Positions 384-30,893 of a stretch of 34,456 nucleotides of DNA are shown piece by piece. The notes beneath the pieces are model-generated. The model saw only the letters and a program-made list of their open reading frames with translations. It made no database searches and was not told the origin of the DNA. This DNA comes from Clostridiales bacterium (lineage in GTDB: Bacteria; Bacillota; Clostridia; Lachnospirales; Lachnospiraceae), in contig JAJQEU010000021.1 in NCBI GenBank assembly GCA_021201535.1, positions 1 to 34,456 of the forward strand. The letters are read 5' to 3'. The first letter of the stretch is position 1; every line of letters starts with the position of its first letter. The position numbers were made by a program, and so were the translations under genes.

Positions 384-490
384 AACCCACCTCCTGGCTT
401 TTGGCTCACAACTAAAAATGCAGAGAACCTGCAGATTCAATCACGAGTGGAGATTTGACTGTCGATTATAAATCAAGACAGACATCGTGA

Positions 491-507
491 TGAACCTTTC
501 GGTTCAA
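491..507. promoter_or_regulatory. Operator palindrome TGAACC-TTTC-GGTTCA
   Basis: A perfect 6-bp inverted repeat has a 4-base spacer. The same half-sites recur at 547-553 (TTGAACC) and 591-597 (GGTTCAA). They lie just downstream of the minus-strand promoter and around the plus-strand promoter, as expected for a repressor controlling both. The XRE protein encoded at 641 is the obvious candidate (inference). Confidence 0.55.
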
Positions 508-539: not shown

Positions 540-581
540 GCAGAAATTGAACCTTTGAGTGCAAATATATTGAAAAAACTA

Positions 582-610
582 TTGCTTTTCGGTTCAATAA
601 GTATTATAAT
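582..610 (+). promoter_or_regulatory. Promoter for the XRE / type III island operon
   Basis: TTGCTT (582-587) and a perfect TATAAT (605-610) are separated by 17 bases, 30 bases upstream of the XRE start codon. The half-site GGTTCAA (591-597) lies inside the spacer, and TTGAACC (547-553) lies upstream. This arrangement suits autorepression by the first gene product. Confidence 0.6.
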
Positions 611-640: not shown

Positions 641-1036
641 ATGACTCTGGGTGAATATGTAAAGAAAAAAAGAAATGAGATGGGAATAAGCAGGAATCTG
701 CTTGCTTCAAGAGCAGGAATTAGCCATACGGAAGTTCAGCGAATCGAGACAAACGAAAGGAAGATGCCATCATTAAAGGTTCTTTGCTCCTTGGCTGATG
801 CGTTGAATGTACCGCAGGAAGACTTTCTGAAAATTGCCGGCTACACACCTACCGATGATACACCTGTTGTTGAACGCGCATTTCCAGGATTGAAGACGAG
901 TAAGCAGCAGGAAACTATAGTAAAAATTGCTGACGGTCTTTCAAGGAATTCTGACTTAAAGGACGAAGATTTGGATGACCTATTTAAACAGGTGGAGATG
1001 TTCATTGAGTATGCAAAGAGGGAAAAAGATACCTGA
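641..1036 (+). CDS. XRE-family helix-turn-helix regulator
   Basis: This encodes 131 residues. Residues 1-65 form a Cro/CI-type HTH domain: a GEYVKKKRNEMGISRNLLASRAGIS helix-turn-helix core (quoted in parts: GEYVKKKR, then LLASRAGIS), then a recognition helix beginning TEVQRIE. The C-terminal half is helical and acidic with no recognised domain. An RBS (GGAGGTGAAACG) precedes the ATG. The gene overlaps the following ImmA-like gene by 26 bases. XRE plus ImmA/IrrE is the standard pair in which the peptidase relieves repression after damage or entry of foreign DNA, as in ICEBs1. Here the pair heads a putative restriction operon, so it probably controls expression of the island. Confidence 0.85.
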   Translation: MTLGEYVKKKRNEMGISRNLLASRAGISHTEVQRIETNERKMPSLKVLCSLADALNVPQEDFLKIAGYTPTDDTPVVERAFPGLKTSKQQETIVKIADGLSRNSDLKDEDLDDLFKQVEMFIEYAKREKDT

Positions 1037-2420
1037 AAAACCGAGATTTAATTTTGTTACGAAAATGGCATATGAGTTTTTGCTTGAGTGTGGTTATAGT
1101 ACATTTCCCATCTCTCCGTATGATGTTCTGAATGAACTAAATGAAAAAGTGGTGTGTCTGTCATGGTCAGATGCAAGGAAAATATTAAATACTGACGATC
1201 CGTTTCATCTGATGAAACTGAAAGCCGAAGGCAGAACTGTACGTATGCGCGACACGGGCAAATATTATATTGTTTATGATGATGTAACGATTAACAGTCC
1301 GGATCGGATTTCCTGGACAATCATGCATGAGATAGGCCATGTTATTCTTGGACATCTTGTGGATTTTAGTGAGACAGCTTTAAATCGTGGTGGGATTACC
1401 AATGAACAGTATGGAGTGTTGGAAGTAGAAGCACATTATTTTGCGGCAGAGTTTTTGATGCCGACAGCGATACTGAAATATTTTCCAGATATTACAGTAG
1501 ATGAAATTGCCCTGTTGTTTGGTGTTTCGGATATGGCAGCAGAGAAAAAATATAAAAGGGTATTTAAATCGTCATATTTGCCCTATGATGCATATGAAGA
1601 GAAATTACTTCGGAATTTCTTTAAATTTCTTATGACCGGAATGGATGCCGCTATTTATAAAAGTATTTATCGGATGTGGGGATTGCCGTGGAAAGAAAAA
1701 TATGTTTCGGTTTGCAGGAAATGCCAAAACTGTCTTTCTTACATAGACGATCCAAAGGCTGAGTTTTGTCCATATTGCGGTGACATTATAGAGCAACATC
1801 GGATGTATAAGAATATGTCTGAGCGGTTAAAAAAATTACAGGAATTTAGAGAGCAACCAGGATTTTCCCATTTGACTTTTCCGTACCTGAAGGTCGAGAC
1901 TGCTTCTAATGGAATAAAGTATGAGCGAATTACGATATGCCCCACTTGTTTAAATCATGAAATTCCAGGGTCCGCAGGATATTGTCGCATTTGTGGACAG
2001 CCGCTTAAAAATATCGGATATGAAGATGAGATTATTAAATCCATTACGGATTGTTTTAGCAGAAATACAGGAAGAGAAACTTCGTCAAATTCATGGTATC
2101 CGGAATTTGAAAAGCGATACAGATTTTTGATGGAATATGATGGAGTGCTTTTACAGGAGGATTGGGTGGAATATCCGTACTGGGAATTTACAAAATGGAT
2201 GGTTCGGGGGAATCATACGGAAACATCACTGGATCTTCAATCAGCGATACTGTACTCAGCTGCTTTTATGGATGACAATGATGATATACACATAGTGACG
2301 GATACCAAAATGGCCGAGAAAGTCATCCAAAATGAACAAGAAGTATTGCTTTCCTATTTGGTAAGAACAGATGATATAAAACGCGAGAAAGTTGAGGTGC
2401 TTGTTATAGATGATTTATAA
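1011..2420 (+). CDS. ImmA/IrrE-family zinc metallopeptidase with zinc ribbons
   Basis: This encodes 469 residues from ATG 1011, which overlaps the XRE gene in another frame. An M78-type peptidase domain spans roughly residues 15-160. The HEIGH zinc motif is at 106-110, and the third ligand is probably E140 in an EAHYFAAEFLMP block, which closely matches the family signature. Unlike plain ImmA, which is shorter, it continues with two zinc ribbons: cysteines at 235/238/241 with 253/256, and 310/313 with 325/328. A C-terminal domain of about 130 residues is unrecognised. The family cleaves an XRE-type partner, so the neighbour at 641 is the likely substrate. The ribbons may sense nucleic acid or bind partner proteins (inference). 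Confidence 0.85.
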   Translation: MQRGKKIPEKPRFNFVTKMAYEFLLECGYSTFPISPYDVLNELNEKVVCLSWSDARKILNTDDPFHLMKLKAEGRTVRMRDTGKYYIVYDDVTINSPDRISWTIMHEIGHVILGHLVDFSETALNRGGITNEQYGVLEVEAHYFAAEFLMPTAILKYFPDITVDEIALLFGVSDMAAEKKYKRVFKSSYLPYDAYEEKLLRNFFKFLMTGMDAAIYKSIYRMWGLPWKEKYVSVCRKCQNCLSYIDDPKAEFCPYCGDIIEQHRMYKNMSERLKKLQEFREQPGFSHLTFPYLKVETASNGIKYERITICPTCLNHEIPGSAGYCRICGQPLKNIGYEDEIIKSITDCFSRNTGRETSSNSWYPEFEKRYRFLMEYDGVLLQEDWVEYPYWEFTKWMVRGNHTETSLDLQSAILYSAAFMDDNDDIHIVTDTKMAEKVIQNEQEVLLSYLVRTDDIKREKVEVLVIDDL

Positions 2421-2754
2421 TGATGGGTATGAAGTGGACAAAGACAAAAGATTTGCAAGATGCCCCAAATGTGGAAATGAGGAATATTCTTCAGAAGCTT
2501 CTTTCTGTCGTATCTGCGGCTTTCCTGCATATAACGAATGTGAAGGTTCTGTAGACTACGATGAATTTGGAAATACAGAGGGGCTTCATATTCACAGGAA
2601 TGCAGGTAATGCAAGGTATTGTGAATACTGTGGGAAACTGACAATGTTATTTAAAGAAAAGATGCTATTGTCATATGCAGACGTACAGTCTGAGCAGATG
2701 AATGAATCTCCATTTCCTTTTTCAGAAGTAGATGAGGAACTGCCATTCAACTAG
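2410..2754 (+). CDS. Zinc-ribbon protein of the island operon
   Basis: This encodes 114 residues. The start overlaps the end of the ImmA-like gene by 11 bases, so translation is probably coupled. There are three pairs of CxxC-type knuckles: CPKCG at about 18-22, CRICG at about 33-37 and CEYCG at about 72-76, giving a double zinc-ribbon look. The CRICG knuckle is identical to one in the preceding ImmA-like protein, so the two may share a recent origin or bind the same partner. The tail is acidic. I recognise no named family, and its function is unknown. It could act as a regulatory or nucleic-acid-binding subunit of the system. Confidence 0.65.
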   Translation: MIYNDGYEVDKDKRFARCPKCGNEEYSSEASFCRICGFPAYNECEGSVDYDEFGNTEGLHIHRNAGNARYCEYCGKLTMLFKEKMLLSYADVQSEQMNESPFPFSEVDEELPFN

Positions 2755-2776
2755 AAGCGAGATGAGGTGAGAAACT

Positions 2777-4000
2777 ATGTCGAAAAAAAACAATGATTTC
2801 TTTAAGGAGAAAAAAACGTGGTCGGAGGTAAAAGATGAGCTCTTGGCTTGCTATTTTAGGCCATATGTAGCGAAAATTTTGCATACATATAAGCCGCTGG
2901 TTTATATTGACTGCTTCGCCGGGAAAGGAAAATTCGATGATGGAAAAAAGGGCTCACCTCTTATTGCACTGGATATTATAAGAGATTCTTGCCAGGCTAC
3001 AAAGATAACCGGAATGCCGAACATAGAGACGGCTTTTATTGATGCTAATTATGCTGCCGAACTTAGAGAAAATTTGGCCGCATATCCTAAAGCCAAAGTT
3101 ATAGCAGGAAAATATGAGGATGAGATTGATACTTTATTAAAGGACAAAAATGACAGCAATGTGTTTTTGTATATTGATCCGTATGGAATTAAAGCCCTTA
3201 ATTGCGCAAGATTTGATCAACTTGCTAATGGACAGTTTAATTCTATTGAGTTGCTAATTAATATGAATACTTTTGGCTTTATCCGTGAGGGTTGCCGGGT
3301 TTTTGGTGCTCACTTTAAGACAGAGGCAACATTTTTTGATGATCTCGTAGAATATGAGCCAACGGTACTTGATACATCTGATAACTCGCTGAAATCTTCT
3401 GTACAGGCGTTGAATGATATTGCTGGCGGGGATTACTGGAAAATAATAATTGAGCAATATAAAAAGGGGGAAATAACTGGATACGAGGCAGAAGAATATT
3501 TTGCCGAACAGTATTGTCAGAGATTAAGCCAGAGCTATTCCCATGTTCTTAATATGCCGATCCGGATACAAAAAGGGAAACATACCAAATACCGGATGAT
3601 ACACGCGACCAATCATCCGGACGGGTGTATTCTTATGGCTGATAATATTTGCAATCGTTGGGAGCTGCTTCGGGAGATACAGACAGGTGGGCAAATGTCT
3701 CTTTGGGAGGAAGATATCAATAACCAACCAATAGATATGTCAGAAATTGAGAATAAGGTAATCGATCATTTTTCACAGTGTGGTAGTTGGATATCTCTGA
3801 ACGCGGCAATGGCTGTGTTTTTTGTAAAATATGGAATTATATGCAGTACAAGTGATATTACAAAAATTCTCAAGAAACTTGAAAAAAGGGGACGACTCGA
3901 TGTCTTGAGAAATCCCAGATTAACTAAGTCAGGGAAACGACCAACCACATTTATGACAGAAGGAAAAGGTCAAACCGTCGCAGTAAGGTGGGTAAAATAA
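2777..4000 (+). CDS. tcmP: Three-Cys-motif partner protein, TcmP-like, with methyltransferase-like motifs
   Basis: This encodes 407 residues, with an RBS (GATGAGGTGAG) 6 bases before ATG. The N-terminal block with YIDCFAGKGKFDDG followed by GSPLIAL is the recognisable TcmP signature. FAGKG (47-51) looks like SAM-binding motif I, and DPYG (134-137, in FLYIDPYG) looks like a catalytic motif IV of class I methyltransferases, so an enzymatic role on nucleic acid is plausible but unproven. The C-terminal third has a winged-helix look (about residues 320-395). TcmP proteins are named for lying next to a Gp37/Gp68-type three-Cys-motif protein, and that partner overlaps the stop codon here (TAATG). 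The target of the pair is not known to me. Confidence 0.8.
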   Translation: MSKKNNDFFKEKKTWSEVKDELLACYFRPYVAKILHTYKPLVYIDCFAGKGKFDDGKKGSPLIALDIIRDSCQATKITGMPNIETAFIDANYAAELRENLAAYPKAKVIAGKYEDEIDTLLKDKNDSNVFLYIDPYGIKALNCARFDQLANGQFNSIELLINMNTFGFIREGCRVFGAHFKTEATFFDDLVEYEPTVLDTSDNSLKSSVQALNDIAGGDYWKIIIEQYKKGEITGYEAEEYFAEQYCQRLSQSYSHVLNMPIRIQKGKHTKYRMIHATNHPDGCILMADNICNRWELLREIQTGGQMSLWEEDINNQPIDMSEIENKVIDHFSQCGSWISLNAAMAVFFVKYGIICSTSDITKILKKLEKRGRLDVLRNPRLTKSGKRPTTFMTEGKGQTVAVRWVK

Positions 4001-4773
4001 TGGAAATAGCCGGATACATACAGCGAAAATCAATGCTTTATCAAACAGGTGTAGAATATGGAGATTATACCATGAACCATGTGCTTGGCTGCGCACATGG
4101 CTGTAAATATCCATGTTATGCTTTTATGATGAAGAAACGATTTGGACAGATAGATTTGTATGAGAACTGGCTAAAACCGTATTTGGTCGAAAATACACTC
4201 GAACTTTTAGATAGAGAAATACCAAGGCTTAAAAAGAAAATTAAATCCGTCCAGCTTTGTTTTACAACGGATCCGTTTATGTTTGGATACGATGAAATAG
4301 CTGAGATGAGTATGAAGTCTATCAGAAAGTTAAATGAAAATGGGATAAAGTGTTGCATATTGACAAAAGGACTTTTGCCAGTTGAGCTTGCGGATATGTC
4401 TAAAGAAAACGAATATGGGATTACGTTAATTTCATTGAATGAAAATTTTCGCGAGAAAATGGAACCGTTTGCTGCTGGATACAGAGAACGGTTGGAATCA
4501 CTTAGAACTTTGCATGATAGAAGATGTAAAACATGGATTAGTATGGAGCCATATCCAACGCCTAATCTCATTAAGCAGGATTTGGGTTCGCTGCTTGAAA
4601 ATGTGGGATTTGTTGATAAGATTATTTTTGGCCGGATGAATTATAATCCGGTTGTTACTAAATATACTGAGCATAGACATTTTTATAATGAATGTGCTAC
4701 AGAAGTTATTCGTTTCTGTGAGATGAATAAGATTCAATACCACATAAAGGAAAAAACGATTACAGAGGAATAG
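4000..4773 (+). CDS. Three-Cys-motif protein (DUF5131/Gp37-Gp68-like, radical-SAM-like)
   Basis: This encodes 257 residues from ATG 4000, which overlaps the tcmP stop in TAATG; AAGGTGGG just upstream is the RBS. The cysteine cluster C31-C35-C39 (GCAHGCKYPCYA) is CX3CX3C. Classical radical-SAM enzymes have CX3CX2C, so this is the atypical three-Cys form. Later blocks fit a TIM-barrel radical-SAM-like fold: QLCFTTDPF, CCILTKG and WISMEPYPTP, the last resembling the conserved SxEP segment of DUF5131/Gp37-Gp68 proteins. It probably binds an iron-sulfur cluster, and it may use SAM to modify nucleic acid together with TcmP (inference). It also shows some resemblance to spore photoproduct lyase-like proteins. 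Confidence 0.75.
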   Translation: MEIAGYIQRKSMLYQTGVEYGDYTMNHVLGCAHGCKYPCYAFMMKKRFGQIDLYENWLKPYLVENTLELLDREIPRLKKKIKSVQLCFTTDPFMFGYDEIAEMSMKSIRKLNENGIKCCILTKGLLPVELADMSKENEYGITLISLNENFREKMEPFAAGYRERLESLRTLHDRRCKTWISMEPYPTPNLIKQDLGSLLENVGFVDKIIFGRMNYNPVVTKYTEHRHFYNECATEVIRFCEMNKIQYHIKEKTITEE

Positions 4774-4793
4774 GATAATATAAGGAGACAACG

Positions 4794-6365
4794 ATGCCTA
4801 CACTTGACTGGATTGGGAAGGATAAGGTGATCAATCATCATCTGGATGTGCCTTATCATGTTTTGGAAAGACAATATAGTTTTGATGAAACTGGACAGCA
4901 TGAAGAGGACAATGACAGTGAGAACATGATTATTCATGGCGACAATCTGATTGCATTAAAATCCTTGTTGCCGCGCTATGAGGGGCGGATTAAATGTATC
5001 TATATCGATCCACCTTATAATACCGGAAATGAGGGCTGGGTTTATAATGACAATGTGAATGATCCACGAATAAAAAAATGGCTTGGAGAAGTGGTTGGGA
5101 AAGAGGAAGAGGATCTGTCACGTCATGATAAATGGCTTTGTATGATGTATCCGAGATTAAAACTATTGCAGCGCTTATTAGCCGATGACGGCTTTATCTT
5201 TGTTAGTATAGATGTTTTTGAGTACGCAAATTTAAAATGCTTGATGGATGAAATCTTTGGAGCATCTAACTTCAGAAATTGTATTGCTGTCCGTAGAGGA
5301 ATAAAAAATGTACAAGCACAATTCGATGAGGTACAGGCACTTTCTCTTGGACACGAGTATATTTATTTATACTCTAAGAATCCGTCCTCTAAGCTGCCCA
5401 AGCTTTCTAAAGCGTTTGAAGTTGAAAAAGCCGGGAAGTGGGACACGTTTTGGCGTGGAACCGATAGACCGACTATGCGGTATGAAATCTTTGGTAACTG
5501 CCCTGAAAGTGGGCAATGGCGTTGGGAGAAAGGACGCGCGCGAAAAGCAATAGATAATTATGAAAGATTTTTATCATTATATGCAGATGAATATGAATTA
5601 GATGATTATTATATAGAGCATCTTATGGCAACAAATGAAAAATTGGATTTTGTCCGTAAAAATGAAATGGGCACGATTCAATATTACGTGCCACCCCAAA
5701 CTGGAAAGTTGCTCAGCGACAATTGGATGGACATTCTTTTGTCTGGCTCATACGCCGGATTTGATACGGAAAAAAATGTACTTCTTCTTGATAGAATTAT
5801 TGGCTGGATAACATCAGGTGATGACATCATCTTAGATTCATTTGCGGGTTCTGGGACTACTGCTCATGCTGTTCTAAATATGAATAAAGAGCATGGGAAT
5901 AATTGCAAATATATTTTAATTGAGATGATGGATTATGCAGATAGCCTTACAGCTGATCGTGTTAAGCGAGTCATCACAGGAAAAGAAAGGAAGAAAACTG
6001 TTGAAGGCACAGGCGGAAATTTTAGCTATTATGAGTTAGGCGAAGAACTGATGAAAGATGGACGGCTCAACGAAACAATAAGTCCGGAAAAAATTCGGGA
6101 ATATATTTATTTCACAGAAACTAAGAATCCACCGGAGAAAAAACCGGATGAACCTTACTTCCTGGGGACATATGTGGGTACCGCATATTATTTTTATTAT
6201 GAAAGGTCCGAATTAACAGCCCTTAATAGAGAATTTCTTCATACTGTGAAAACGAGAGCGGATGCATACGTGATTTATGCAGATATGTGTACGCTGAGTG
6301 AGCGTGAATTGGAAAAATACCATATCACGTTCAAAAAAATACCGCGTGATATTACGAAATTGTAG
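4794..6365 (+). CDS. mod: Type III-like DNA adenine-N6 methyltransferase (Mod)
   Basis: This encodes 523 residues, with AAGGAG upstream of ATG. The catalytic motif IV DPPYNTG is at 72-78 and the SAM-binding FAGSGTT block at about 350-356. Catalytic motif before SAM motif marks a beta-class N6-adenine methyltransferase, the class of type III Mod subunits. The block GDNLIALKSLLP before DPPY and the DGFIFVSID segment are also typical. The region between, about 140-340, would contain target recognition. It is somewhat shorter than many Mod proteins (often above 600 residues). The Res gene follows after 17 bases, so the two should form a modification/restriction complex that protects host sites and cuts unmethylated DNA. 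Confidence 0.88.
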   Translation: MPTLDWIGKDKVINHHLDVPYHVLERQYSFDETGQHEEDNDSENMIIHGDNLIALKSLLPRYEGRIKCIYIDPPYNTGNEGWVYNDNVNDPRIKKWLGEVVGKEEEDLSRHDKWLCMMYPRLKLLQRLLADDGFIFVSIDVFEYANLKCLMDEIFGASNFRNCIAVRRGIKNVQAQFDEVQALSLGHEYIYLYSKNPSSKLPKLSKAFEVEKAGKWDTFWRGTDRPTMRYEIFGNCPESGQWRWEKGRARKAIDNYERFLSLYADEYELDDYYIEHLMATNEKLDFVRKNEMGTIQYYVPPQTGKLLSDNWMDILLSGSYAGFDTEKNVLLLDRIIGWITSGDDIILDSFAGSGTTAHAVLNMNKEHGNNCKYILIEMMDYADSLTADRVKRVITGKERKKTVEGTGGNFSYYELGEELMKDGRLNETISPEKIREYIYFTETKNPPEKKPDEPYFLGTYVGTAYYFYYERSELTALNREFLHTVKTRADAYVIYADMCTLSERELEKYHITFKKIPRDITKL

Positions 6366-6382
6366 GTGAGGAGGGGAATTTC

Positions 6383-9028
6383 ATGGAGTTAAAGACATAT
6401 CAGAAAAAAGTGATGAAGGATCTGGTTTCTTACATGGATTCTCTGGATGCTGCACCGGGAATACATTCTGCTTGGTCTGATTATTGGATGAAGCAGGATG
6501 TCTGTATCGGATTTGGAGGTGTCCCAGGGTATGTGGATACGATATCCGGTGTGCCTCATGTGTGCATGAAGGTTCCGACCGGTGGGGGAAAGACATTTAT
6601 GGCCTGTGCTTCTTTGCATAAGATTTTCTCCAGGATGCCGGAATCAAAAGCGAAGGTGGTTGTATGGCTGGTGCCATCGGATCCGATTTTGGTTCAGACG
6701 ATCCGGACACTTTCTGACGTGAATCATGATTATCGCAAGCGCCTGGATGCTGATTTTGCAGGGCGTGTTGGTGTATACACGAAAGATATGCTGTTGAATG
6801 GACAGAATTTCTCGCCGGACACGGTACGCGAAATGCTGACAGTTTGCATTATGAGTTATGGGTCATTGCGTATTGACAGCCGCAAAAAGGATGTGCGTAA
6901 GGTCTATCAGGAAAATGGAAATCTTTTAAAATTTGCAGATTATTTTAACAGCAGAGATGTCCTTTTGGCAGATACTCCAGATACAGCGCTGATTCAGGTT
7001 TTGCGTCAAATGGAACCAGTTGTTGTAGTGGATGAAAGCCATAACGCGCAGTCGAATCTTAGTGTGGAAATGCTGGAACGATTGAATCCGTCCTTTATTC
7101 TCGATTTGACCGCAACACCAAAGAAAAACAGCAATATTATTTCTTACGTGGACGCGAGAGAATTGAAAAAAGAAAACATGGTGAAACTGCCGGTGATTGC
7201 GTATTTCAGAAATGACCGCCAGAGTGTAATTCAGGATGCCATCCAGTTTCGTGGCTATTTGGAAAGACAGGCTGAAACGGCGAGAGCAGGGGGCGGTGAG
7301 TATATCCGGCCGATTGTACTCTTCCAGGCACAGCCGAATACCAATGAGGATAGTGAAACCTTTGACAAGATAAAAAAGCTTTTGATGGATATGGGGATTC
7401 CGGAGGAAGAGATCGGGATAAAAACATCAAAAGTGGATGATATCAGTAAGTTGGATTTGATGAGTGAGGACTGCAGTATTCGGTATATTATTACAGTCAA
7501 TGCCCTGAAGGAGGGATGGGATTGTCCGTTTGCCTATATTTTGGCTTCTCTGGCCAATAAAACATCGAAGGTAGATGTGGAGCAGATTCTTGGGCGTGTG
7601 CTGAGACAGCCTTATACAAGAAAGCACGCGGGAACGCTTTTGAATTCGTCTTATGTATTTACCTGCTCCCGTGATTTCCGGGAGACGATAGACAGCATTC
7701 TGGCGGGACTAAATAATGCCGGTTTCAGTAGAAAAGACTTTCGGCTCGGTAGTTCAGAAGAATCAATGCAACAGGAGCCAGATGATGCTCCTGTAGGTAC
7801 ACAAATGACGGTGGATGATATCCCTGTGTCGGAAGTGGAAACGGCGGAAACAGGAGATACGGAGGATAGTTTTGATGATATTGATCCATCATCAGTAAAC
7901 ACTTCTCCGATATCTGATGATGGTGATGTTGATGTGGCGGTGGCAGATATCGCCGAGACAGCGGAACAGAGCGCGGCGGAATATGAGGAAGAATTTACAG
8001 AAGCGGAAACTGACAATGCCGGGTATACATGGGGAGAATTGGGATCTATGCTGAATCAGTACAGGATACAAACACAATACCGTGATGAGATAAAGAACCT
8101 GAAAATTCCTCAGTTCTTTGTGCAAACGGTACCTGATTTATTTGGAGACGAGTACGAAATGCTGGAGCCGGAAGCATTATCAGAGGGATTTTCTCTGTCA
8201 GGTCAGAATGCAGAGATTAATTTTGAGTTGGATTCCAGCCAGATATATAAGTTTGACATTGCAGAAGAAGGGGAAGCAGTTCCAAAATATAAAAAAGTAA
8301 AACAGGACAGCAGTGAATACATCAAAAATTTTATTTCGAGATATCCAGAAGAAAAACGTGTAAATCTCTGCGTGGATACAATTTGCTACCAGCTAAATAA
8401 GAATAACAGAATTCCGGGAGCTCATATTCTAGCATATGTTAAGCGGATAGTGGCTGCGATGGATAAGGATGATGTAGCTGCGATGCAGTCGAATGTGCCA
8501 ACGTATGCGTATAAAATTGGAAAAAAGATTGACTCTCTGGAAGAGGCCTACCGCGAGGAACAGTTTTATAAGTGGTTAGACGCAGGAAAAATCATTTGTC
8601 GGGAGGCATATGTATTCCCGGATGTGATTACATCGGCACAGGCGATTGATGCAGTTCCTTATTCTTTGTATGAAGCGGAAAAGGATGATATGAATCAGTT
8701 TGAACGGCGTGTGCTAGATGTGATTGTTGCCTTGAATAATGTGCGATGGTGGCACAGGATTATTGAGCGTAAGGGATTCCGCTTGAATGGGTTTATTAAT
8801 CATTATCCAGATTTTATCGTGATGACGAAGAAGGGGAATGTAGTTCTGGTAGAATCAAAGGGAGATTATCTGGACGGTGATGACAGTAAAACAAAGCTGA
8901 GCCTGGGACGATCATGGCAAGCTGCAGCAGGAGGCAGATACCGATATTTTATGGTGTTTAAGGACAAGGAAATTGGCAAGGGCTCTTATAAGCTGGATGA
9001 TTTTGTCGAGGTTATGAAGAACTTATAA
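6383..9028 (+). CDS. res: Type III-like restriction subunit (Res), DEAD/H helicase-nuclease
   Basis: This encodes 881 residues with a strong RBS (GAGGAGGGG). SF2 helicase motifs are Walker A PTGGGKT (65-71), DESH (217-220) and the arginine-finger motif QILGRVLRQPY near 400. The C-terminus carries a PD-(D/E)XK-like nuclease: YPDFIV then VVLVESKGD, about residues 808-827. This order matches type III Res proteins, which translocate or slide on DNA and cut after meeting a partner complex. Between helicase and nuclease lies an acidic, low-complexity stretch (about 470-555, rich in D, E, S, T) of unknown role. It is the last gene of the operon and is followed by a terminator at 9055-9082. Confidence 0.88.
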   Translation: MELKTYQKKVMKDLVSYMDSLDAAPGIHSAWSDYWMKQDVCIGFGGVPGYVDTISGVPHVCMKVPTGGGKTFMACASLHKIFSRMPESKAKVVVWLVPSDPILVQTIRTLSDVNHDYRKRLDADFAGRVGVYTKDMLLNGQNFSPDTVREMLTVCIMSYGSLRIDSRKKDVRKVYQENGNLLKFADYFNSRDVLLADTPDTALIQVLRQMEPVVVVDESHNAQSNLSVEMLERLNPSFILDLTATPKKNSNIISYVDARELKKENMVKLPVIAYFRNDRQSVIQDAIQFRGYLERQAETARAGGGEYIRPIVLFQAQPNTNEDSETFDKIKKLLMDMGIPEEEIGIKTSKVDDISKLDLMSEDCSIRYIITVNALKEGWDCPFAYILASLANKTSKVDVEQILGRVLRQPYTRKHAGTLLNSSYVFTCSRDFRETIDSILAGLNNAGFSRKDFRLGSSEESMQQEPDDAPVGTQMTVDDIPVSEVETAETGDTEDSFDDIDPSSVNTSPISDDGDVDVAVADIAETAEQSAAEYEEEFTEAETDNAGYTWGELGSMLNQYRIQTQYRDEIKNLKIPQFFVQTVPDLFGDEYEMLEPEALSEGFSLSGQNAEINFELDSSQIYKFDIAEEGEAVPKYKKVKQDSSEYIKNFISRYPEEKRVNLCVDTICYQLNKNNRIPGAHILAYVKRIVAAMDKDDVAAMQSNVPTYAYKIGKKIDSLEEAYREEQFYKWLDAGKIICREAYVFPDVITSAQAIDAVPYSLYEAEKDDMNQFERRVLDVIVALNNVRWWHRIIERKGFRLNGFINHYPDFIVMTKKGNVVLVESKGDYLDGDDSKTKLSLGRSWQAAAGGRYRYFMVFKDKEIGKGSYKLDDFVEVMKNL

Positions 9029-9312: not shown

Positions 9313-12246
9313 ATGGGGAAGATAATTGATCAGTGGAATGGGCAGGTAGAAGACGCTAAAATAGAGTATGATTATGAACGAAAAAAAATAATTTCTGATG
9401 TCGGCTCAGATGTTCGTATCACAACAGATTTCCCTGATGTGGATTATGATAAAGCGGACAAAGCAGATTACATAGTTGCGGCTTCCTGTGGAGTTTTAAC
9501 CGGATTATTGGACTCTTTTTGGGGTGGAGAGTTTTCGCTTTCCACAGCGCAGGAATGGGGAAGATCTAAAGCAAACAGTTTTGTAATCAAAGTCGCTCAG
9601 ATGCGTGGTTACGGAAAGAGCGAACTTGATGGAGCAATACGTTTTCTGGAAAAAGATGCGCCTATTCCTTCTGATCAGTTGACACGAACATGGGGCGGAG
9701 GATTACAGCATCATTTTCGCGATTTTGCCCATCATGCATCTGTTGTGGGGCTTGTCTTTTCGGTGATGAGCCAGTTCACTGGTCTTTCATATGGAACTAA
9801 TACCGAGGGACGGTTTGAAATGCATGAATTATCCAGTAAGGATCTGATAGGAAAGACGTTTGAAGAGAAGCTGTTTAATGGAACCGTGATATGGGTGCTT
9901 CATCTGGTTAGCGATATGGCTGGTTCGAGTAGTAACGCCGGGAAGGGAACCGGTATTCCGGGACCGATACTTTCGCTTGCAAAAGAGCTCTCTGTTTTGC
10001 CTAAAATAAGAGACTTAAAGATGGAGTATAAGGGCAACGAGATCAACTTGTCAGTGATGCTTTCAAAGATTTTTAACGGGACAGCATTCTCACACTCTGG
10101 ACATGATGATGTAGTAAGATTTGATTTACGAACAGAAATGGGCATATATGCTTTTGGAGTAGCACAGAGTATACCTGTGGTTATTAACCAATGTATGGTT
10201 CGTGCCTTTTATTTTGTAAAGAGATTGTATATTGAAATCAGCAGAAAACAGATAAAGGGTATCAGGGATATCGCTAAACTTGAACCCGAGCATTTTCTGC
10301 CTTGGAATAACAAGTGCATTGTTAGAATGCTGACGATATCGAGTGGTGTTTTCTGCAGCGTTGACGTTTCGGATGCAGCTATCAGGTCATTTATAAGATC
10401 ACCACAGAATAAGTCGGAGTTTTTCTCTCAGTTCCTGCTGCGGATGAACTTTGTGGGGATTGGTAATTTTGTTGTGTCTATTAAGAATGATATTGCGGCA
10501 AATATATTCAGTGATAGCAAAGGGCTTTCTAATATTGATAAGGGAACAAATAGTGACAATAGTATTCCTGAAAATATAACAATAGACATTGCCGTTGAGA
10601 TTGATAACACGAGAATCTACGACTATGCATTTTATAGAATGTATGGTCATGTGAAAGAAACGAAAGAGAACTTCACTGCTGCCTATAATGTCAATGTGGG
10701 AATGGAGCGACGAATACTTCGGTTAGAAGATGATGAAACAGATTTGTTTAATTGTGTGGCATCAGCGAGCCAGCATGCGCTAATAGTAGAAACCGAGGAG
10801 TTAATGATGCGGCTATTTACATTATATGGCGTAGACTACATTGCTTTTGCAGGCGATTCTAAATATAAGTTTCATATGCCATTTTACAGGAATGAGAGCC
10901 GGGGAAGAATTGGCTATATCTTTTCAAGAAGCCTGATGGAGCGTATAAAATGGGAGACTATCAAAGAAGAGTACAATATTGATGGAATAAACGTAGTTGC
11001 GCTTGTTGAACTGGGAGAAAATTCTGAAACGCGTAATGCGATAATGGGAGAGGAAACAAGAAGATCCCAGGGCTTTGTACAATATATGCCGTTAAGGGAT
11101 TTGTTTGCGCTTATTTCGGATGATGAATACGATGTGTATATGAACTATGTGAATAAGTTCAATAAGGATATTTACAAGCTTATTGGCTACCGCACGATCG
11201 TTGTTCCGTCGGATAGTTCTTTAAAGACATTAAAAGCGGATATTGAAAATGAATTAAGAACAGCAGATTTTGACAGCCAGTTAATACATGAAGGGGTATA
11301 TAACAATCAGCTTCAAGTCATCCGGAATAATTTTTGGGAACGGGGGCTTTATCAGGCGCTTTTAAGTGACTGCTCTTTCGCTGAGAGTTTTATAAGCTCA
11401 GAATGGTATTATAAGACGCATGTGGAGTTCAGTGTACTGGAACAGACGGCGATTATTGCAGGGTATTTGAAGTCTGTAGAACAGCTGCTTTATGCCATAG
11501 TTCAATTATCAGAAGGTACAGGTAAACAGATAAAAAAGAAGGGCGGCGAAAGGGTTTTATATATTGATTTTACGGCAGAAAATGAACCATTCATTGATAG
11601 CACGCTTGGCTCCATAATAAGTTATGTGCGTCATTATTCGGATTTGTGGGAAGTAAATGCGTTCGTAAAAAATTTCGTAGTAAATAAGCTAAACGTTTAT
11701 CGTGAAAAATATAGAAATGACCATTTCCATAAAGATAATGTCAACAGCATTGAAGAAATTGAAGAGATAAGAGAGAATACAATTCTTCTGCATTATCTTC
11801 TGCTTGGCGCTATGAGGATTAAGGATGCTGATAAGAAAAAGCTTGGTATAGTAAATATTCCAGAAATAGTAGCAGAGGAAAAGAAAGATATTTCCTATGG
11901 GATATTTGAGGAATGGTTGAATAGGATAATAGGCGGAGATGTCCTGCTTCCGAAAACATCTAAGATTTATTTTCAGATAGGAGGCTGGGGAACTGACAAG
12001 TGGAAACTTGAATTTTCAACCGTTAGCGGCTTCAATGATCAAGGATTCCCGAAAAATATAAAATGGCCATATATCGGGGATGATTTAAAATGGGACAGAG
12101 TTCTTGAAGAAGATGCGATGGAAAAGAAAGTAATTTCATTTATCGAGGAATATTTGCAAAATGGTAAATATGCAGGAAACCTTAAAGCGTATAAAATGAT
12201 TTCTGCAGGATGGCTTGGATGTCCTCAAATTCTATATAAGCAATAA
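9313..12246 (+). CDS. Large protein of unknown function (977 residues)
   Basis: This is a complete reading frame of 977 codons with RBS GAGGGGAAG 8 bases before ATG. I do not recognise the family. A histidine-rich patch, GGGLQHHFRDFAHHASVV (about residues 127-145), leads into a hydrophobic segment (ASVVGLVFSVMSQF), and a Gly/Ser-rich stretch with GKGTGIPGP follows near 215. Another hydrophobic helix (IPVVINQCMVRAFYF) lies near 290. There is no signal peptide and no Walker A, HNH or PD-ExK motif that I can see. The C-terminal half is mixed alpha/beta and charged. It stands alone between the type III operon and convergent polA, is AT-rich like the island and is undamaged, all of which suits selected phage or element cargo. 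A defence role is a guess. Confidence 0.8.
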   Translation: MGKIIDQWNGQVEDAKIEYDYERKKIISDVGSDVRITTDFPDVDYDKADKADYIVAASCGVLTGLLDSFWGGEFSLSTAQEWGRSKANSFVIKVAQMRGYGKSELDGAIRFLEKDAPIPSDQLTRTWGGGLQHHFRDFAHHASVVGLVFSVMSQFTGLSYGTNTEGRFEMHELSSKDLIGKTFEEKLFNGTVIWVLHLVSDMAGSSSNAGKGTGIPGPILSLAKELSVLPKIRDLKMEYKGNEINLSVMLSKIFNGTAFSHSGHDDVVRFDLRTEMGIYAFGVAQSIPVVINQCMVRAFYFVKRLYIEISRKQIKGIRDIAKLEPEHFLPWNNKCIVRMLTISSGVFCSVDVSDAAIRSFIRSPQNKSEFFSQFLLRMNFVGIGNFVVSIKNDIAANIFSDSKGLSNIDKGTNSDNSIPENITIDIAVEIDNTRIYDYAFYRMYGHVKETKENFTAAYNVNVGMERRILRLEDDETDLFNCVASASQHALIVETEELMMRLFTLYGVDYIAFAGDSKYKFHMPFYRNESRGRIGYIFSRSLMERIKWETIKEEYNIDGINVVALVELGENSETRNAIMGEETRRSQGFVQYMPLRDLFALISDDEYDVYMNYVNKFNKDIYKLIGYRTIVVPSDSSLKTLKADIENELRTADFDSQLIHEGVYNNQLQVIRNNFWERGLYQALLSDCSFAESFISSEWYYKTHVEFSVLEQTAIIAGYLKSVEQLLYAIVQLSEGTGKQIKKKGGERVLYIDFTAENEPFIDSTLGSIISYVRHYSDLWEVNAFVKNFVVNKLNVYREKYRNDHFHKDNVNSIEEIEEIRENTILLHYLLLGAMRIKDADKKKLGIVNIPEIVAEEKKDISYGIFEEWLNRIIGGDVLLPKTSKIYFQIGGWGTDKWKLEFSTVSGFNDQGFPKNIKWPYIGDDLKWDRVLEEDAMEKKVISFIEEYLQNGKYAGNLKAYKMISAGWLGCPQILYKQ

Positions 12247-12289: not shown

Positions 12290-14278
12290 TCATTCCTTTT
12301 TGTAAAATTGGGTTTCATATCCATCTCCGCGGATCAGGATGTCCGCCATCCAGTCTGGCGAACGGCTCATGATGGAGCAGATTGCGTCCACGGAGACACT
12401 TTGGCTGCATTCTATGATGACTTCGTCATGGACGTGGCCGCAGATGAAGCAGAAGGACAGGTTCTGCATGGCGAAGCAGAGAAGGTCGCGGGAGATTGCC
12501 TGGACGATATTTTCCACGAACTTCGGACCGTAGGATTCGATCCGCTGCCATTTTTTGTTGGAACCGACTCCCTCATAGGTGACGGATTCCCCGCCGAAGC
12601 GGTTTTCGCCCATCTTTGGCTTGACATAGGAGAGGGTGCGGCCGGACGGGAGATGGATGAAGAGCATCCCGCTTTTGTACTGGAAGCGGATGCCGCCCAC
12701 TTTCGTGGTGATTCGCTGTTTGACGGTGGTTTTGACTGCCGCGTCCACGTCCCACCAATACTGTACGATGTTCGGATTTGCGGAGCGCCACGCGTCCACC
12801 AGCGGCTGCAGTTCATCTTCGGCCAGTCCCATCTCCAAGGCGCCCATGGACTTGAGTGCGCCGACGGATCCGCCGTAGCCGAGGGCGAGCTCTGCGATCT
12901 TGCCTTTCTGGCGCAGATGGGAATTGACGCCGTGTTTCTCCACGGGGACGCCGAACATCTGGCTGGCGGAAGCACAGTAGATGTCTTTCCCTTCTGCGAA
13001 GACTTTGGATCGCCATTTCTCACCGGCAAGGTAGGAGAGGACGCGGGCTTCGATGGCGCTGTAGTCGCTGACCACAAATTTATATCCGAGACGGGGGATG
13101 AATGCCGTGCGGATCAGCTGGGAGAGCGTGTCCGGGATGTCGTCATACAGAAGCTTCAGGGGTTCATAATCTCCGGTGCGAACGAGTTCGCGGGCTTCCG
13201 CAAGGTCGGGCATGTGGTTCTGCGGGAGGTTCTGCAGCTGGATCAGGCGGCCGGCCCACCGCCCGGATCGGTTGGCACCGTAGAACTGGAACATCCCGTG
13301 CGCCCGCCCGTCGCGGCAGACGGCGTTCTTCATGGCCTGGTATTTTTTTACGGACGACTTTGCCAGCTGCAGCCGGAGCTGTAAGGCTTCCCGGATGGAT
13401 CCTTCCGTGTCCGGGATGAGCTTTGCCACGTCCTTTTTGCCGAGGGATTCTGTTTCTAGGCCGTTGGCGGAAAGCCATTGTTTCATCTGCGCGACGCTGT
13501 TGGGATTGTCGAGCGCTGTGAGATCCTGCATGGTTTCCATCAGGGCAGACCGGGAACGTGCGTCAAAGGCGATGGCGTTATTGACCACGTCCATGTCCAG
13601 CAGGATCCCGCGGTCATTGATTTCCTGATCCAGATGATATTCATCCCAGACCTGTTCCGGGACGGGATATTTTGACAGGCGCTTCTGGATGGACATTTCC
13701 ACTTCCATGTCGCGCAGGTTGTATTTTTTGAACAGATCCCATTTTTCCGGGGCATGGTGCGGGAGGTTCCGGGCGCGCCCGCCGTTTGCTTTGGTCGGTT
13801 TGCAAGGGGAGCAGAAGTAACGGATCAGGTCTTTGCCTTCCGTCAGCTTCTGGTTCTCCAGGCCGAGGACTGCGCCGGCCCCGGCGAGGTTCAGCGGCAG
13901 CCCCAGATAGGCAGACCAGATCATGGTGCATCTCCATGACGACGGATCCAGATAGCTGCCGGCCGGATCGCCGGGGATGCTGTAGCCTTTGAAATATTCC
14001 GGGCGGTGATTGTACAGCCAGTTGGAAAGACAGACGCGCTCAAAGGATGCGTTGAACGCCCATTTTATAACAGCATCATCCGCAAGGGCAGTGAGGATTT
14101 CATCCGGGATGGTATCGCCGCAGGCAAGGTCATAGATCGTGACGGGACCGCCGTTGACGGAAACGCCGAAAAGCAGGATTTCAAAATTTTCTGATTCCGC
14201 GTATTTGTACGCGCCGCATTTGGAGATATCCACGTCACTGTAGGTCTCCAGGTCGATTGATAGTTCTATTATTTTCAT
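12290..14278 (-). CDS. Phage family A DNA polymerase
   Basis: This encodes 662 residues. The N-terminal DEDD 3'-5' exonuclease starts with DLETYSDVD (D9, E11). The polymerase palm has motif A DYSAIEARVLSYLAGE at about 403-418, the O-helix region RQKGKIAELALGYGG (motif B), and motif C HDEV at about 617-620. There is no 5' nuclease domain, as in phage polymerases of this type. It is the last gene of the minus-strand replication operon (two small genes, DUF2800, DUF2815, unknown, polymerase) and converges with the 977-residue gene. RBS AAAGGA lies upstream of ATG. It should replicate the phage genome together with the primase/helicase at 17921. The sequence looks intact. Confidence 0.93.
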   Translation of the reverse strand: MKIIELSIDLETYSDVDISKCGAYKYAESENFEILLFGVSVNGGPVTIYDLACGDTIPDEILTALADDAVIKWAFNASFERVCLSNWLYNHRPEYFKGYSIPGDPAGSYLDPSSWRCTMIWSAYLGLPLNLAGAGAVLGLENQKLTEGKDLIRYFCSPCKPTKANGGRARNLPHHAPEKWDLFKKYNLRDMEVEMSIQKRLSKYPVPEQVWDEYHLDQEINDRGILLDMDVVNNAIAFDARSRSALMETMQDLTALDNPNSVAQMKQWLSANGLETESLGKKDVAKLIPDTEGSIREALQLRLQLAKSSVKKYQAMKNAVCRDGRAHGMFQFYGANRSGRWAGRLIQLQNLPQNHMPDLAEARELVRTGDYEPLKLLYDDIPDTLSQLIRTAFIPRLGYKFVVSDYSAIEARVLSYLAGEKWRSKVFAEGKDIYCASASQMFGVPVEKHGVNSHLRQKGKIAELALGYGGSVGALKSMGALEMGLAEDELQPLVDAWRSANPNIVQYWWDVDAAVKTTVKQRITTKVGGIRFQYKSGMLFIHLPSGRTLSYVKPKMGENRFGGESVTYEGVGSNKKWQRIESYGPKFVENIVQAISRDLLCFAMQNLSFCFICGHVHDEVIIECSQSVSVDAICSIMSRSPDWMADILIRGDGYETQFYKKE

Positions 14279-14346
14279 AGATTCTCATATCCTTTTCTTA
14301 TGCAGAATGGCAGCGGGCGGTGTGCCGGCTGCCAGTTCGTCTTTTT

Positions 14347-14904
14347 TTATCCAGTAATAAGATCATATTCAATGTCCACGAGGGACTTGAGGGCTTCTTC
14401 CTTATATACCGGTTCCTCGTTTGCCTCAGCAATGTTGTGGCGGGCTGTCTTTGGTTTGCCGCAGTAATTGTTATCCTGGAGAGATTCCACGTACTCCTGA
14501 AACAGCCGGTACTCATTCATCAGGATAATGGCGGGTGCGCGGAGTGCTTGGAGACGCTGGTTGCGGAGGTTCCTGCGGTAAACGCTGCGGAGAAAATACT
14601 GGATGTCGTACAGCGTGTCAAAATCATCACAGCAACAGAGGATGTCGTCCACGTTGATGCTCTTGACGGAGACATCCGGCAGCCCCAGGGACTGGCGGTA
14701 ATAGCAGACAGCTTCCGATCCATAGAGGAAAAAATCCGGAAGATTGGATCCCATTTTGTTTTGGACCAGGGTGAGGTCGGTCGATTCAGGAACCAGAACT
14801 TTCCTCATGCGGAGCAGGTCAATGGCTGTTTCTTTCTGTGTGCCGGTCATGTCGTCTAGGGAGTGCTGCAGGATTACAGGTTTAAACAGGTTGATATTAT
14901 CCAT
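14347..14904 (-). CDS. Conserved-looking phage protein of unknown function, possibly 3' frameshifted
   Basis: This encodes 185 residues, with GAAAGGA as RBS. It is mostly helical and charged, contains three adjacent cysteines (ILCCCDD), and has no motif I recognise. It lies between the DUF2815 and polymerase genes in the replication operon, so a replication role is likely by position only. After the stop TAA (14349-14347), inside a run of seven A on the coding strand, another frame continues without a start codon as a plausible 19-residue tail (KKDELAAGTPPAAILHKKRI) to a TGA near 14290. The gene may therefore have lost its natural C-terminus through a slip. Confidence 0.7.
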   Translation of the reverse strand: MDNINLFKPVILQHSLDDMTGTQKETAIDLLRMRKVLVPESTDLTLVQNKMGSNLPDFFLYGSEAVCYYRQSLGLPDVSVKSINVDDILCCCDDFDTLYDIQYFLRSVYRRNLRNQRLQALRAPAIILMNEYRLFQEYVESLQDNNYCGKPKTARHNIAEANEEPVYKEEALKSLVDIEYDLITG

Positions 14905-14981
14905 AATGGTTTTCCTTTCTGATGAGGGCGGCGGCAGTCGTTTCCGAACTGCCGCCGGTTGAGGGTGGTTTGTGTTACAGA

Positions 14982-15545
14982 TCAGTCGAGGAAATCATCC
15001 TCATCGTCGGTGTCGAAGTCGTCCTCTGCCCTGGAGCGGCCGCCGAGCGGTTCCCCGTCGGAAATCTTCTGCAGGTTGTTCAGGCCGCAGGCAATCTCTT
15101 TATTGCCGTTCGTGTTGAAGGCATACAGGTTGATGGATGCTCTGCCGTAGACGCCGGAATAGACTTCCGAACGCTCCAGGATCGGGTTGCGGTCCGCGTC
15201 CACGATGCCGGGCGCATTGGCGCTGTTAGCGTTGATGAAATAGCTGTTCTTATAGGCTTCATCGTCCGGGCGTTCCAGATCGCCGTCACGCAGCGGCGTC
15301 TTGATGATGGAGAGCGCGGGGACGGATTTCCCGTTGCCCTTCAGCTTGCTCTGGCCTTCCTCATAGGCTGCCTGGATCGCGGCCTTGATCTTCTCCACGG
15401 TCTTTGTGTCAGACTTCGGGATGATGAGGCTGACGCTGTACTTCGGCGCGCCGCCGTTGATGCTCTTCGGGTCCCAGACATTGGCATAGCTCCAGCGGGT
15501 TCTCGGTCCTGTAATCACTTTCGTCGGGTTCATAATCTTTGACAT
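14982..15545 (-). CDS. DUF2815 phage protein, probable single-strand DNA-binding protein
   Basis: This encodes 187 residues, with AGGAGGACAAG before ATG. The beginning (GPRTRWSYANVWDP) and the block KYSVSLIIPKSD are typical of DUF2815, a phage family with an OB-like fold seen beside DNA polymerase and DUF2800 genes. The C-terminus is strongly acidic (AEDDFDTDDEDDFLD), as in single-strand-binding proteins that use an acidic tail to recruit replication partners. The start lies 12 bases after the DUF2800 stop. The likely role is to coat ssDNA during phage replication or recombination. That is a family-level inference; the assignment to DUF2815 itself is firm. Confidence 0.88.
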   Translation of the reverse strand: MSKIMNPTKVITGPRTRWSYANVWDPKSINGGAPKYSVSLIIPKSDTKTVEKIKAAIQAAYEEGQSKLKGNGKSVPALSIIKTPLRDGDLERPDDEAYKNSYFINANSANAPGIVDADRNPILERSEVYSGVYGRASINLYAFNTNGNKEIACGLNNLQKISDGEPLGGRSRAEDDFDTDDEDDFLD

Positions 15546-15557
15546 AATCTTGTCCTC

Positions 15558-16679
15558 CTAATCTTCTTTGAAATCATCCTGTGCGGTGTTCATGGCCGGG
15601 CGTTTATCGGTTTCCGGCACTAACGTGGGTCTTCCGGGCGGCTTGTAAACGAGGCTGCCCAGCAGCTGCTCAAATTTCTTTTTCCCCAGAAGGGATGTCA
15701 TGGCGGTGATCCCCATCAGTTTCTTCTCATAAGGATCATATCCCGCGCCGGTGACAGTGGCCGCGACCGCGGCGTCATCCGTATATTTGCGGTTTGACCG
15801 GCCTTCCACAACTTTCCAGCCTTCATAATGGATGCCGGACTGCGCCTGGCGCAGGGCGTATTCCTTGATGTCATTTCCCCAGGCGACCAGCTCATCCACC
15901 TTTGAGAGGATGGCGGCGATCTCCGTGTCGTCCAGGGCGGCGGGCATTTCAAAATCGTATCTGGCAAGCTCCAGATTGTACTCCGCGCGTTTCCTGCAGG
16001 TGGCTTTAACCTTGCAGAACTGGCAGTGGTCGCCGGCCTTGAAATCACCCTTGCCGTCATAGGCGAGCTGCGCGGTGGGCTTTAAGGTTTCTTCCGCCCA
16101 TGAAAGCAGGCCGTCCTTGCTGATGGTATAAGTGCTGATATTTTCGCGGCGCGGCTGGAAGATGGTCATCTTTACGGAATCAATGTCGTAGATCCCGTCA
16201 TAGGTATCCAGGGCGCCGAGGGCGTAACACATCATCTGCGGGTTCTGCTCTGCGTCCACGAGGACGCCGACGCCGTATTTGAAATCAATGATGTGCAGTG
16301 TGTGGTCTGCGACGATCAGGCAGTCGCCGGTGCCGAAGCCGTCCGGTACCCATTTGGAGAAGTCCAGCCTCTGTTCCACCAGTACCCGCGGATCCTGACA
16401 GTATGTACGGGCTTCCTCCAGCTGCTCCATGACATAGGAGCAATACTGGTCCGTGCAGCTGTCCATTTCCTGGTCGAACCAGGTGAGGTCCGGGGTGGGA
16501 TCCTGTGCGGGCTGGCCGATGGCGTGCAGCACTTTGTATTCACAGAGTGCGTGGGCGTCGGTTCCCTGCTGTGCGTAGGGGCTTCCCTCATCTTTGACGG
16601 AAGCGCAGAGCTTCGCGCTGGGCGGGCAGTTCAGCCACCGGTGGCTTGCAGATGCGGAGAGGAATGCGTGGTTAAGCAT
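15558..16679 (-). CDS. DUF2800 phage protein, Cas4/RecB-like nuclease
   Basis: This encodes 373 residues. The opening LSASASHRWLNCPPSAKL and AQQGTDAHALCEYK are characteristic of DUF2800. It has a PD-(D/E)XK-like core (DCLIVADHTLHIIDFKYG) and a downstream cysteine cluster (CQFCKVKATC) that, with a more distant cysteine, could hold an iron-sulfur cluster as in Cas4/AddB relatives. It probably acts as an exonuclease in phage recombination with DUF2815. The ATG overlaps the stop of the upstream gene (ATGCTTAA). It ends with TAG, showing that TAG is a normal stop in this phage. Confidence 0.88.
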   Translation of the reverse strand: MLNHAFLSASASHRWLNCPPSAKLCASVKDEGSPYAQQGTDAHALCEYKVLHAIGQPAQDPTPDLTWFDQEMDSCTDQYCSYVMEQLEEARTYCQDPRVLVEQRLDFSKWVPDGFGTGDCLIVADHTLHIIDFKYGVGVLVDAEQNPQMMCYALGALDTYDGIYDIDSVKMTIFQPRRENISTYTISKDGLLSWAEETLKPTAQLAYDGKGDFKAGDHCQFCKVKATCRKRAEYNLELARYDFEMPAALDDTEIAAILSKVDELVAWGNDIKEYALRQAQSGIHYEGWKVVEGRSNRKYTDDAAVAATVTGAGYDPYEKKLMGITAMTSLLGKKKFEQLLGSLVYKPPGRPTLVPETDKRPAMNTAQDDFKED

Positions 16680-30785: not shown

Positions 30786-30798
30786 GAGCATGAATGGA

Positions 30799-30893
30799 AA
30801 GCCGTGTACATCGAGAGGTGTAAGCACGGTTTGGGGAGAGGCTTGTGCAAACCGACATTGGAAACAATGCACGGCGGCACTTGCCTACTCTAC
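30799..30893 (+). ncRNA. Group II intron domains V and VI
   Basis: Domain V has the stem AGCCGTG (30800-30806) / CACGGTT (30825-30831), with the catalytic AGC triad at its start, and an upper stem TACATC/GGTGTA closed by a GAGA tetraloop. Domain VI ends with GAG-AGGC paired to GCCT-A-CTC, leaving A30887 bulged as the branch point 6 bases before the final base pair step of the 3' end (CTCTAC). Both fit active introns. Confidence 0.85.

Follow-up and report, generated by a model that had tools for sequence, protein, structure and literature searches.

This report concerns an operon in a 34,456-nucleotide contig from a Clostridiales bacterium of the family Lachnospiraceae (JAJQEU010000021.1, assembly GCA_021201535.1; the whole stretch, positions 1 to 34,456, is referred to here as the window), and above all two adjoining genes within that operon. 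One encodes a TcmP-family protein, methyltransferase-like by its motifs, and the other a radical-SAM protein (rSAM) carrying the cysteine pattern CX3CX3C. The pair recurs in front of many restriction systems, the type III genes that follow it in the window (mod and res) are exchangeable, and the palindromic sites upstream of the XRE-type regulator heading the operon are conserved. The explanation we favour, giving it slightly less than an even chance, is that of a prophage-linked type III operon with a portable cassette in front, in which the pair would serve as a DNA-acting accessory to restriction.

That TcmP and rSAM make a genuine unit became plain from their relatives elsewhere. TcmP as a query found no relative among viral contigs, so the rSAM was used instead. 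A first scan of viral contigs, with the window protein, gave 17 loci and a second, with alignment A1, gave 33, the two sets overlapping; genome contigs contributed the best 80 of 436 matches, which biases the sample towards rSAMs closely related to that of the window. With duplicates dropped (L001, L009, L013 and L017) and the window added, the set stood at 115 loci, from which 24 were removed as redundant to leave 91. The gene immediately 5′ of rSAM belongs to the TcmP family in 86 of these 91. Two of the five exceptions are paralogues (L117, L118), two have other genes in that place (L095, L115) and one stretch begins at the rSAM gene itself (L033). Sequence identities among TcmPs and among their partner rSAMs also co-vary within each of three TcmP subfamilies (Mantel r 0.76 in c0, 0.73 in c1, which is the window's own, and 0.93 in c5).

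What follows the pair was read from the next gene, by which we mean the next co-directional gene within 300 bases 3′ of rSAM. Genes were called mechanically, as longest open reading frames (ORFs) of at least 70 amino acids, with antisense ORFs shorter than 130 amino acids ignored in naming the next gene; companions were classed by PADLOC scans of 38 further neighbours and by cluster membership. A next gene is present in 73 of the 91 loci, the other 18 having an antisense gene (nine), a longer gap (four) or the end of the contig (five). In 23 loci it is a type III mod gene (counting the fragmentary genes of L024 and L078 and the split one of L069), and res stands behind it in 18 of the 23. Type II or IIG-like companions were found in 12 loci (nine scanned, three placed by cluster), some with a nuclease only, and type I companions in four (one scanned, three placed by cluster). 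Beyond these came BREX (L025), Hma (L094), an HKD-Snf2 helicase with mod three genes farther on (L079) and a UvrD-like helicase followed by a methylase-like gene (L028), while on its 5′ side the pair adjoins a type IIG enzyme in L055 and, in L111, a gene of the Mod cluster. By our own tally, restriction-type or DNA-methylase genes adjoin the pair in 45 of the 91 loci. Seven loci carry other defence or candidate genes: bSEFIR (L075), PDC-S53 (L089 and L090), PDC-S11 (L088), a MADS-3-like gene (L095), HEC-07 (L103) and a Schlafen-like gene (L058). An exchange of companions is seen in L037 and L041, whose rSAMs are 98.5% identical and whose 3′ restriction-type genes differ.

The preference for mod is specific to position. 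Within the same loci, Mod matches account for 23 of the 73 next genes, compared with 7 of 817 other same-strand genes and none of 442 opposite-strand genes (Fisher's test 3.9e-21 and 1.0e-21, values that are optimistic, as the loci are related). It is also a preference for type III: type III and type I stand at 23:4 as next genes and at 44:99 among places in 146 genomes of the order (p 1.5e-7), the two samples differing in taxonomy. The type III background was counted with the A4 Mod profile at 1e-30, which matched in 36 of the 146 genomes and gave 51 rows, or 44 places once seven split pairs were joined; this profile may include methylases that are not type III, in which case the true contrast would be larger. 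A single query with a Mod of the L012 type, found in 3 of the 146 genomes, was judged too narrow to serve as the background. On the rSAM tree, which leaves out L115, L117 and L118 and in which many forks are weakly supported, no fewer than 12 changes are required to account for the distribution of type III against all other neighbours; taking all companion classes, with 'unclassified' as one state, the number is 28.

A preliminary description of this DNA had put forward the run of tcmP, the three-cysteine gene, mod and res as a block whose conservation should be sought. Part of that idea stood, mod being the next gene in 23 of 73 cases and at that position in particular; the rest gave way, as type I, type II and BREX genes also follow the pair. 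Either of the two interpretations offered there, a restriction system with an extra modification chemistry or two linked defence systems, may still be right. The exact order of all seven genes as a conserved unit had to be abandoned. The five-gene head, XRE-ImmA-zinc ribbon-TcmP-rSAM, occurs also in L019, L023, L036 (type II-like genes 3′), L059 (with a second TcmP) and L093, and in L059 and L093 no gene lies within 300 bases 3′ of the pair. Because the 3′ genes are swapped, and because the viral-contig relatives of the window's Mod come without rSAM (see below), the cassette is the TcmP-rSAM pair with or without its regulator, and Mod/Res is one of several companions.

In the window, the seven genes run on the plus strand from 641 to 9028, the largest overlap being 62 bases and the widest gap 22, in keeping with their earlier description as one unit. 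They open with an XRE/Cro-CI-type helix-turn-helix (HTH) regulator (641..1036; 131 amino acids; HTH_3 1e-12, PADLOC capH 6e-7). An ImmA/IrrE (Peptidase_M78) protein follows (975..2420; 481 amino acids; PF06114 2.5e-11, PADLOC capP 1.1e-13), the ORF of which may start instead at an inner ATG at 1011 and the C terminus of which holds zinc-ribbon stretches scoring under the cut-off. Then comes a small zinc-ribbon protein (2410..2754; 114 amino acids; Zn_Ribbon_1 1.1e-5, 25.4 bits against a cut-off of 25). TcmP occupies 2777..4000 and rSAM 4000..4773, for which the ORF caller picks a GTG at 3988. Mod (4794..6365; 523 amino acids) matches PADLOC MTase_III over nearly its full length (7.9e-155) and has DPPY; Res (6383..9028; 881 amino acids) matches REase_III (8.5e-74), with PTGGGKT, DESH and a PD..ExK-like C terminus read by eye. 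Since Mod and Res adjoin and carry both the family matches and the motifs, they are, on those grounds, a type III restriction-modification system, which differs from the familiar arrangement in that the TcmP-rSAM pair and an XRE/ImmA head precede mod. The residues named beforehand as targets for point variants, from DPYG in TcmP and C31/C35/C39 in rSAM to DPPY in Mod and DESH in Res, were all located.

The window TcmP passes the TIGR04474 cut-off comfortably (1.5e-33; 116.9 bits against 53), as did seven TcmPs scanned from other loci. It has no Pfam match above cut-off, so it is the motifs that make it look like a methyltransferase, and the FAGKG and DPYG motifs reported earlier are indeed there, the former as DCFAGKG. 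A MarR-like stretch at the C terminus reaches an E-value of 0.23 only. The three subfamilies are related to one another with pairwise profile probabilities of 96.7-98.2%. Motif I is DCFAGKG in 28 of 32 members of c1, DAFAGTG in 13 of 15 of c5, and DCMSNSG or DCMCNSG in 37 of 45 of c0; the second motif is DPYGI (28/32), DPYAT (10/15) and DPYDA (27/45), in the same order. All 30 aligned members of the window's subfamily share the DxFxGxG and DPxG residues without exception, and from these motifs TcmP is predicted to bind S-adenosylmethionine. A PDB sequence search with the TcmP query A2 found no match, and the best PDB match to a further query (A5), a short helical protein, H12, was rejected as helix likeness. 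In some loci tandem TcmP-family genes, c0 then c5, lie 5′ of rSAM (L010:7938-9970, L012, L056 and others); one of the two has a changed motif I, as if this were a two-subunit version.

The partner of TcmP had been taken for a three-Cys-motif protein with an iron-sulfur-type cysteine cluster. The CX3CX3C cluster is there, and the label needed correcting: the protein passes the radical-SAM family PF04055 (46.7 bits, gathering score 29.5). Counted from the start at 4000, its cysteines are C31, C35 and C39, with P38 before the last, which is not the canonical CX3CX2C of the superfamily. The pattern C-x3-C-x2-P-C-Y is found in 113 of 115 rSAM matches, the exceptions being L117 and L118, which have CX3CX2C, are 33% identical to the query and are distant paralogues. 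With such cysteines in a radical-SAM protein, rSAM probably binds an iron-sulfur cluster. None of its named relatives, which are SplB-like families, comes anywhere near its cut-off: rSAM mobile pair B, PA0069 and Rv2578c. In genome contigs the rSAMs are 66-73% identical to the window protein, in records labelled with many bacterial phyla; as most of these records are metagenome-assembled, single taxonomic labels may be wrong. Eight phage records and six plasmid records also match, two of them, both phage, at more than 60% identity. Within the window's own lineage the family is present in 12 of 392 genomes sampled from the order and 10 of 391 from the class (overlapping samples that include the window's own). 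Of the 14 stretches from that prevalence scan, eight were apparently already in the set and six were new (L215, L216, L221-L224). Type I-like genes, recognised by similarity to earlier clusters, lie 3′ of the pair in L221 and L223, and L224 (5744-8645) is alone among the 14 in having a CX3CX3C rSAM whose TcmP lies 3′ and is encoded on the other strand.

DUF5131 is the usual partner of TcmP, and pairs of TcmP with DUF5131 (Gp37/Gp68) proteins are the obvious point of comparison. They resemble the window pair in that its TcmP passes TIGR04474, and differ in the rSAM, which has CX3CX3C and for which membership of DUF5131 (PF07505) was rejected at 19.0 bits against a cut-off of 28.9. At one type III locus, L148, a TcmP and a phrog_2045 protein with a CX6CX2C pattern come after Res, so that two radical-SAM-like partner lineages meet type III systems. 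This DUF5131-type protein gave no PDB sequence match; it matches 161 phage records, and three DUF5131-type phage neighbourhoods and one plasmid TcmP region yielded no firm functional lead.

The head of the operon has its own signature. A palindromic operator-like site, TTGAACCnnnnGGTTCAA, lies at 490..507 with one mismatch and again at 547..564 with two, and a half-site, GGTTCAA (591..597), sits about 50 bases 5′ of the XRE start beside a TATAAT-like box, the promoter being assigned by eye. Allowing up to two mismatches, the window has two matches to TTGAACCnnnnGGTTCAA against an expected mean of 0.15, and none of 100 shuffles reached two. L019, L059 and L093 have a similar palindrome 5′ of the XRE ORF, as does L023 with one mismatch (judged by eye), and L036 has a half-site there. 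Going by the protein families, XRE would repress from these sites and ImmA would relieve the repression by proteolysis upon infection or damage. In sequence the arrangement recalls CapH/CapP of CBASS, where an XRE-type protein and an ImmA-type protease likewise head a defence operon; the window head differs in its extra zinc ribbons, and no CBASS effector or cyclase was among the matches listed for the nine window proteins scanned. In 20 of the 91 loci the place 5′ of TcmP is taken instead by a short c3-cluster gene, HTH-like by eye. Divergent from XRE in the window, at 183-440 on the minus strand, lies the gene of a small zinc-finger protein that weakly resembles a family of translational regulators from phages (phrog_6417, 3.3e-4).

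Downstream of Res there is first a 977-amino-acid protein (9313..12246, plus strand), 284 bases 3′ of Res, whose membership in the operon is uncertain. Part of it matches PADLOC BnzB (1.4e-53), the whole being about twice as long as that model, while scans of Pfam, NCBIfam and PHROGs gave nothing within the limits set; no BnzA was among the matches listed for the nine window proteins scanned against PADLOC (for Mod, the best 25 of 39). A phage replication block recognised with PHROGs follows on the minus strand (12290..16679), with a DNA polymerase, a single-stranded-DNA-binding/annealing protein and an exonuclease, and the window beyond 12.2 kb goes on with a helicase, terminase, portal, head protease and major head protein. 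G+C content is 0.37-0.45 up to 12 kb and 0.48-0.60 farther on, dropping to 0.42-0.43 around a group II intron that splits the portal gene (27660-31247); the intron has a reverse transcriptase ORF at 28989-30785 and an Rfam RF00029 match at 30797-30893. The assembly as a whole comprises 2.77 Mb in 128 contigs. Window phage genes were matched in the fetched flanks of 21 of 114 other pair loci, some by a single gene only, and the polymerase, DNA-binding protein or exonuclease in 15 (duplicates included). Near this replication block the companions of the cassette differ. They are type III genes in three loci (L010, L014, L016), whereas L015 and L101 have a type II nuclease in that place and L080 has a type II methylase. 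I read the cassette's position as a cargo spot within a phage lineage.

Two further observations concern neighbouring genes. Behind Mod-Res in some pair-linked operons stand a DrmD-like helicase or an AbiU-like protein (L053:15854-19459, L010:15789-17534), a third layer; and in L020, L021 and L022 the genes 3′ of the pair look by eye like a response regulator, a kinase and a D-Ala-D-Ala ligase, unusual neighbours for being non-defence.

What might the pair do? Its two proteins probably act together on a nucleic acid, and DNA is the likelier target, since that is the substrate of the companions. We give roughly an even chance to the idea that TcmP and rSAM add a modification to DNA bases or take one away. 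Such a change might let the neighbouring restriction enzyme act on phage DNA that it would otherwise miss or, alternatively, might protect the prophage's own DNA. The boldest form of the proposal, in which TcmP and the CX3CX3C rSAM constitute a new two-step machine modifying or de-modifying nucleic acid, added to restriction systems, type III above all, as a general accessory against phages with protected DNA, is one we would bet against for now.

Several findings weigh against tying the pair to restriction of DNA. The reverse test, starting from Mod, found rSAM in none of 24 flanks of viral-contig relatives of the window Mod (the 5′ flanks are short in L123, L126, L129 and L134). Relatives of the L012 Mod had it in 6 of 41, always directly 5′, so most of these Mods do without the pair; the six are contigs already found by rSAM, one of them (L143) the query's own. 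Among 34 Mod loci from the order sample, partly the same places, the pair was within the short flanks of the window's Mod only. Some companions are not known to hold a DNA methylase (bSEFIR in L075, PDC-S53, PDC-S11 and the Schlafen-like gene), and 39 of the 91 loci have no classified companion at all, 16 for want of a next gene (five at a contig end) and 23 with an unclassified one; a PADLOC scan of the unclassified next genes in L007, L106, L109 and L110 gave no match except a weak capP in L109. Motif I of the c0 TcmPs is short of its first glycine (DCMxNSG in 37 of 45), so some TcmPs may have no methyltransferase activity. Finally, likeness of rSAM to spore photoproduct lyase is not significant: the enzyme is the sole radical-SAM entry in a weak list of PDB matches, at an E-value of 0.4. 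Taking the preference of the next gene for Mod together with the many Mods that lack the pair, the pair prefers restriction systems, and restriction systems do not need the pair.

The rival to be taken most seriously, unlikely as we think it, is that the pair defends on its own. It would then be divergently related to PDC-M30 and PDC-M41, two candidate systems in PADLOC, would travel as prophage cargo and would lie next to restriction genes by chance. The A models of these candidates match the window TcmP (PDC-M30A 6.4e-16, PDC-M41A 9.1e-7) and the B models its rSAM, weakly and with partial coverage (PDC-M30B 9.1e-5, PDC-M41B 1.1e-5). According to one report, PDCs are guilt-by-embedding candidates from defence regions, not experimentally validated; among 100 P. 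aeruginosa strains, PDC-M30 was predicted in 32, and 68.8% of those 32 were phage-resistant (PMC10855318). Independence would fit the pair's occurrence beside genes other than restriction-modification ones, the loci without classified companions and a cargo position by the same phage replication block with different companions. However, loading by chance would account neither for the mod preference at the next gene (23/73 vs 0/442 on the opposite strand) nor for the over-representation of type III relative to type I. By sequence, then, related TcmP pairs are already listed as PADLOC candidates, and the window pair is a distinct radical-SAM variant, with CX3CX3C, tied to restriction operons. 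The earlier description knew of no system with the exact gene set, and we too found no paper on a TcmP-rSAM pair with restriction systems in a literature coverage that excludes preprints and most subscription journals. A comparable mention is in Sinorhizobium meliloti, where a table of up-regulated genes and putative operons places a TcmP gene, SMa2243, next to hna, SMa2245 (PMC12445080), with an effector different from the window's.

We see an outside chance that the pair works instead on RNA, as a backup that would modify or damage it in abortive infection when a phage blocks restriction. PrrC serves a type I system as such an RNA-damaging backup. Many enzymes that modify tRNA or rRNA have radical-SAM or methyltransferase-like folds, and restriction systems, so often the companions here, are what a guard of this kind would be expected to watch. 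The L112 TcmP even has weak matches to MnmC2 (0.008) and RrnaAD (0.17). Those RNA-methylase matches are weak, though, neither TcmP nor rSAM matched a toxin family in the libraries scanned, and the named rSAM relatives are SplB-like. Slimmer still is the case for plain co-localisation in a defence island, with the pair and Mod/Res functionally unlinked in the window: none of the other pair-linked Mods compared is more than 32% identical to the window Mod, and none of its 24 viral-contig relatives shows the pair, so the two seem to have been joined here apart from the other cases and perhaps recently, but the short gaps within one operon and the repeated type III joinings elsewhere (at least 12 changes on the tree) speak against it.

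An rSAM that moves with TcmP among restriction systems is an unusually clear instance of a conserved accessory with swapped effectors. The near-identical pairs of L037 and L041, along with the type III preference, make the dependence between pair and restriction directly testable. If the pair does act on DNA, radical chemistry would be added to restriction and the anonymous PDC-M30/M41 candidate class would be explained. Its recurrence beside so many restriction systems hints at an accessory component of bacterial defence against viruses that has so far gone unrecognised.

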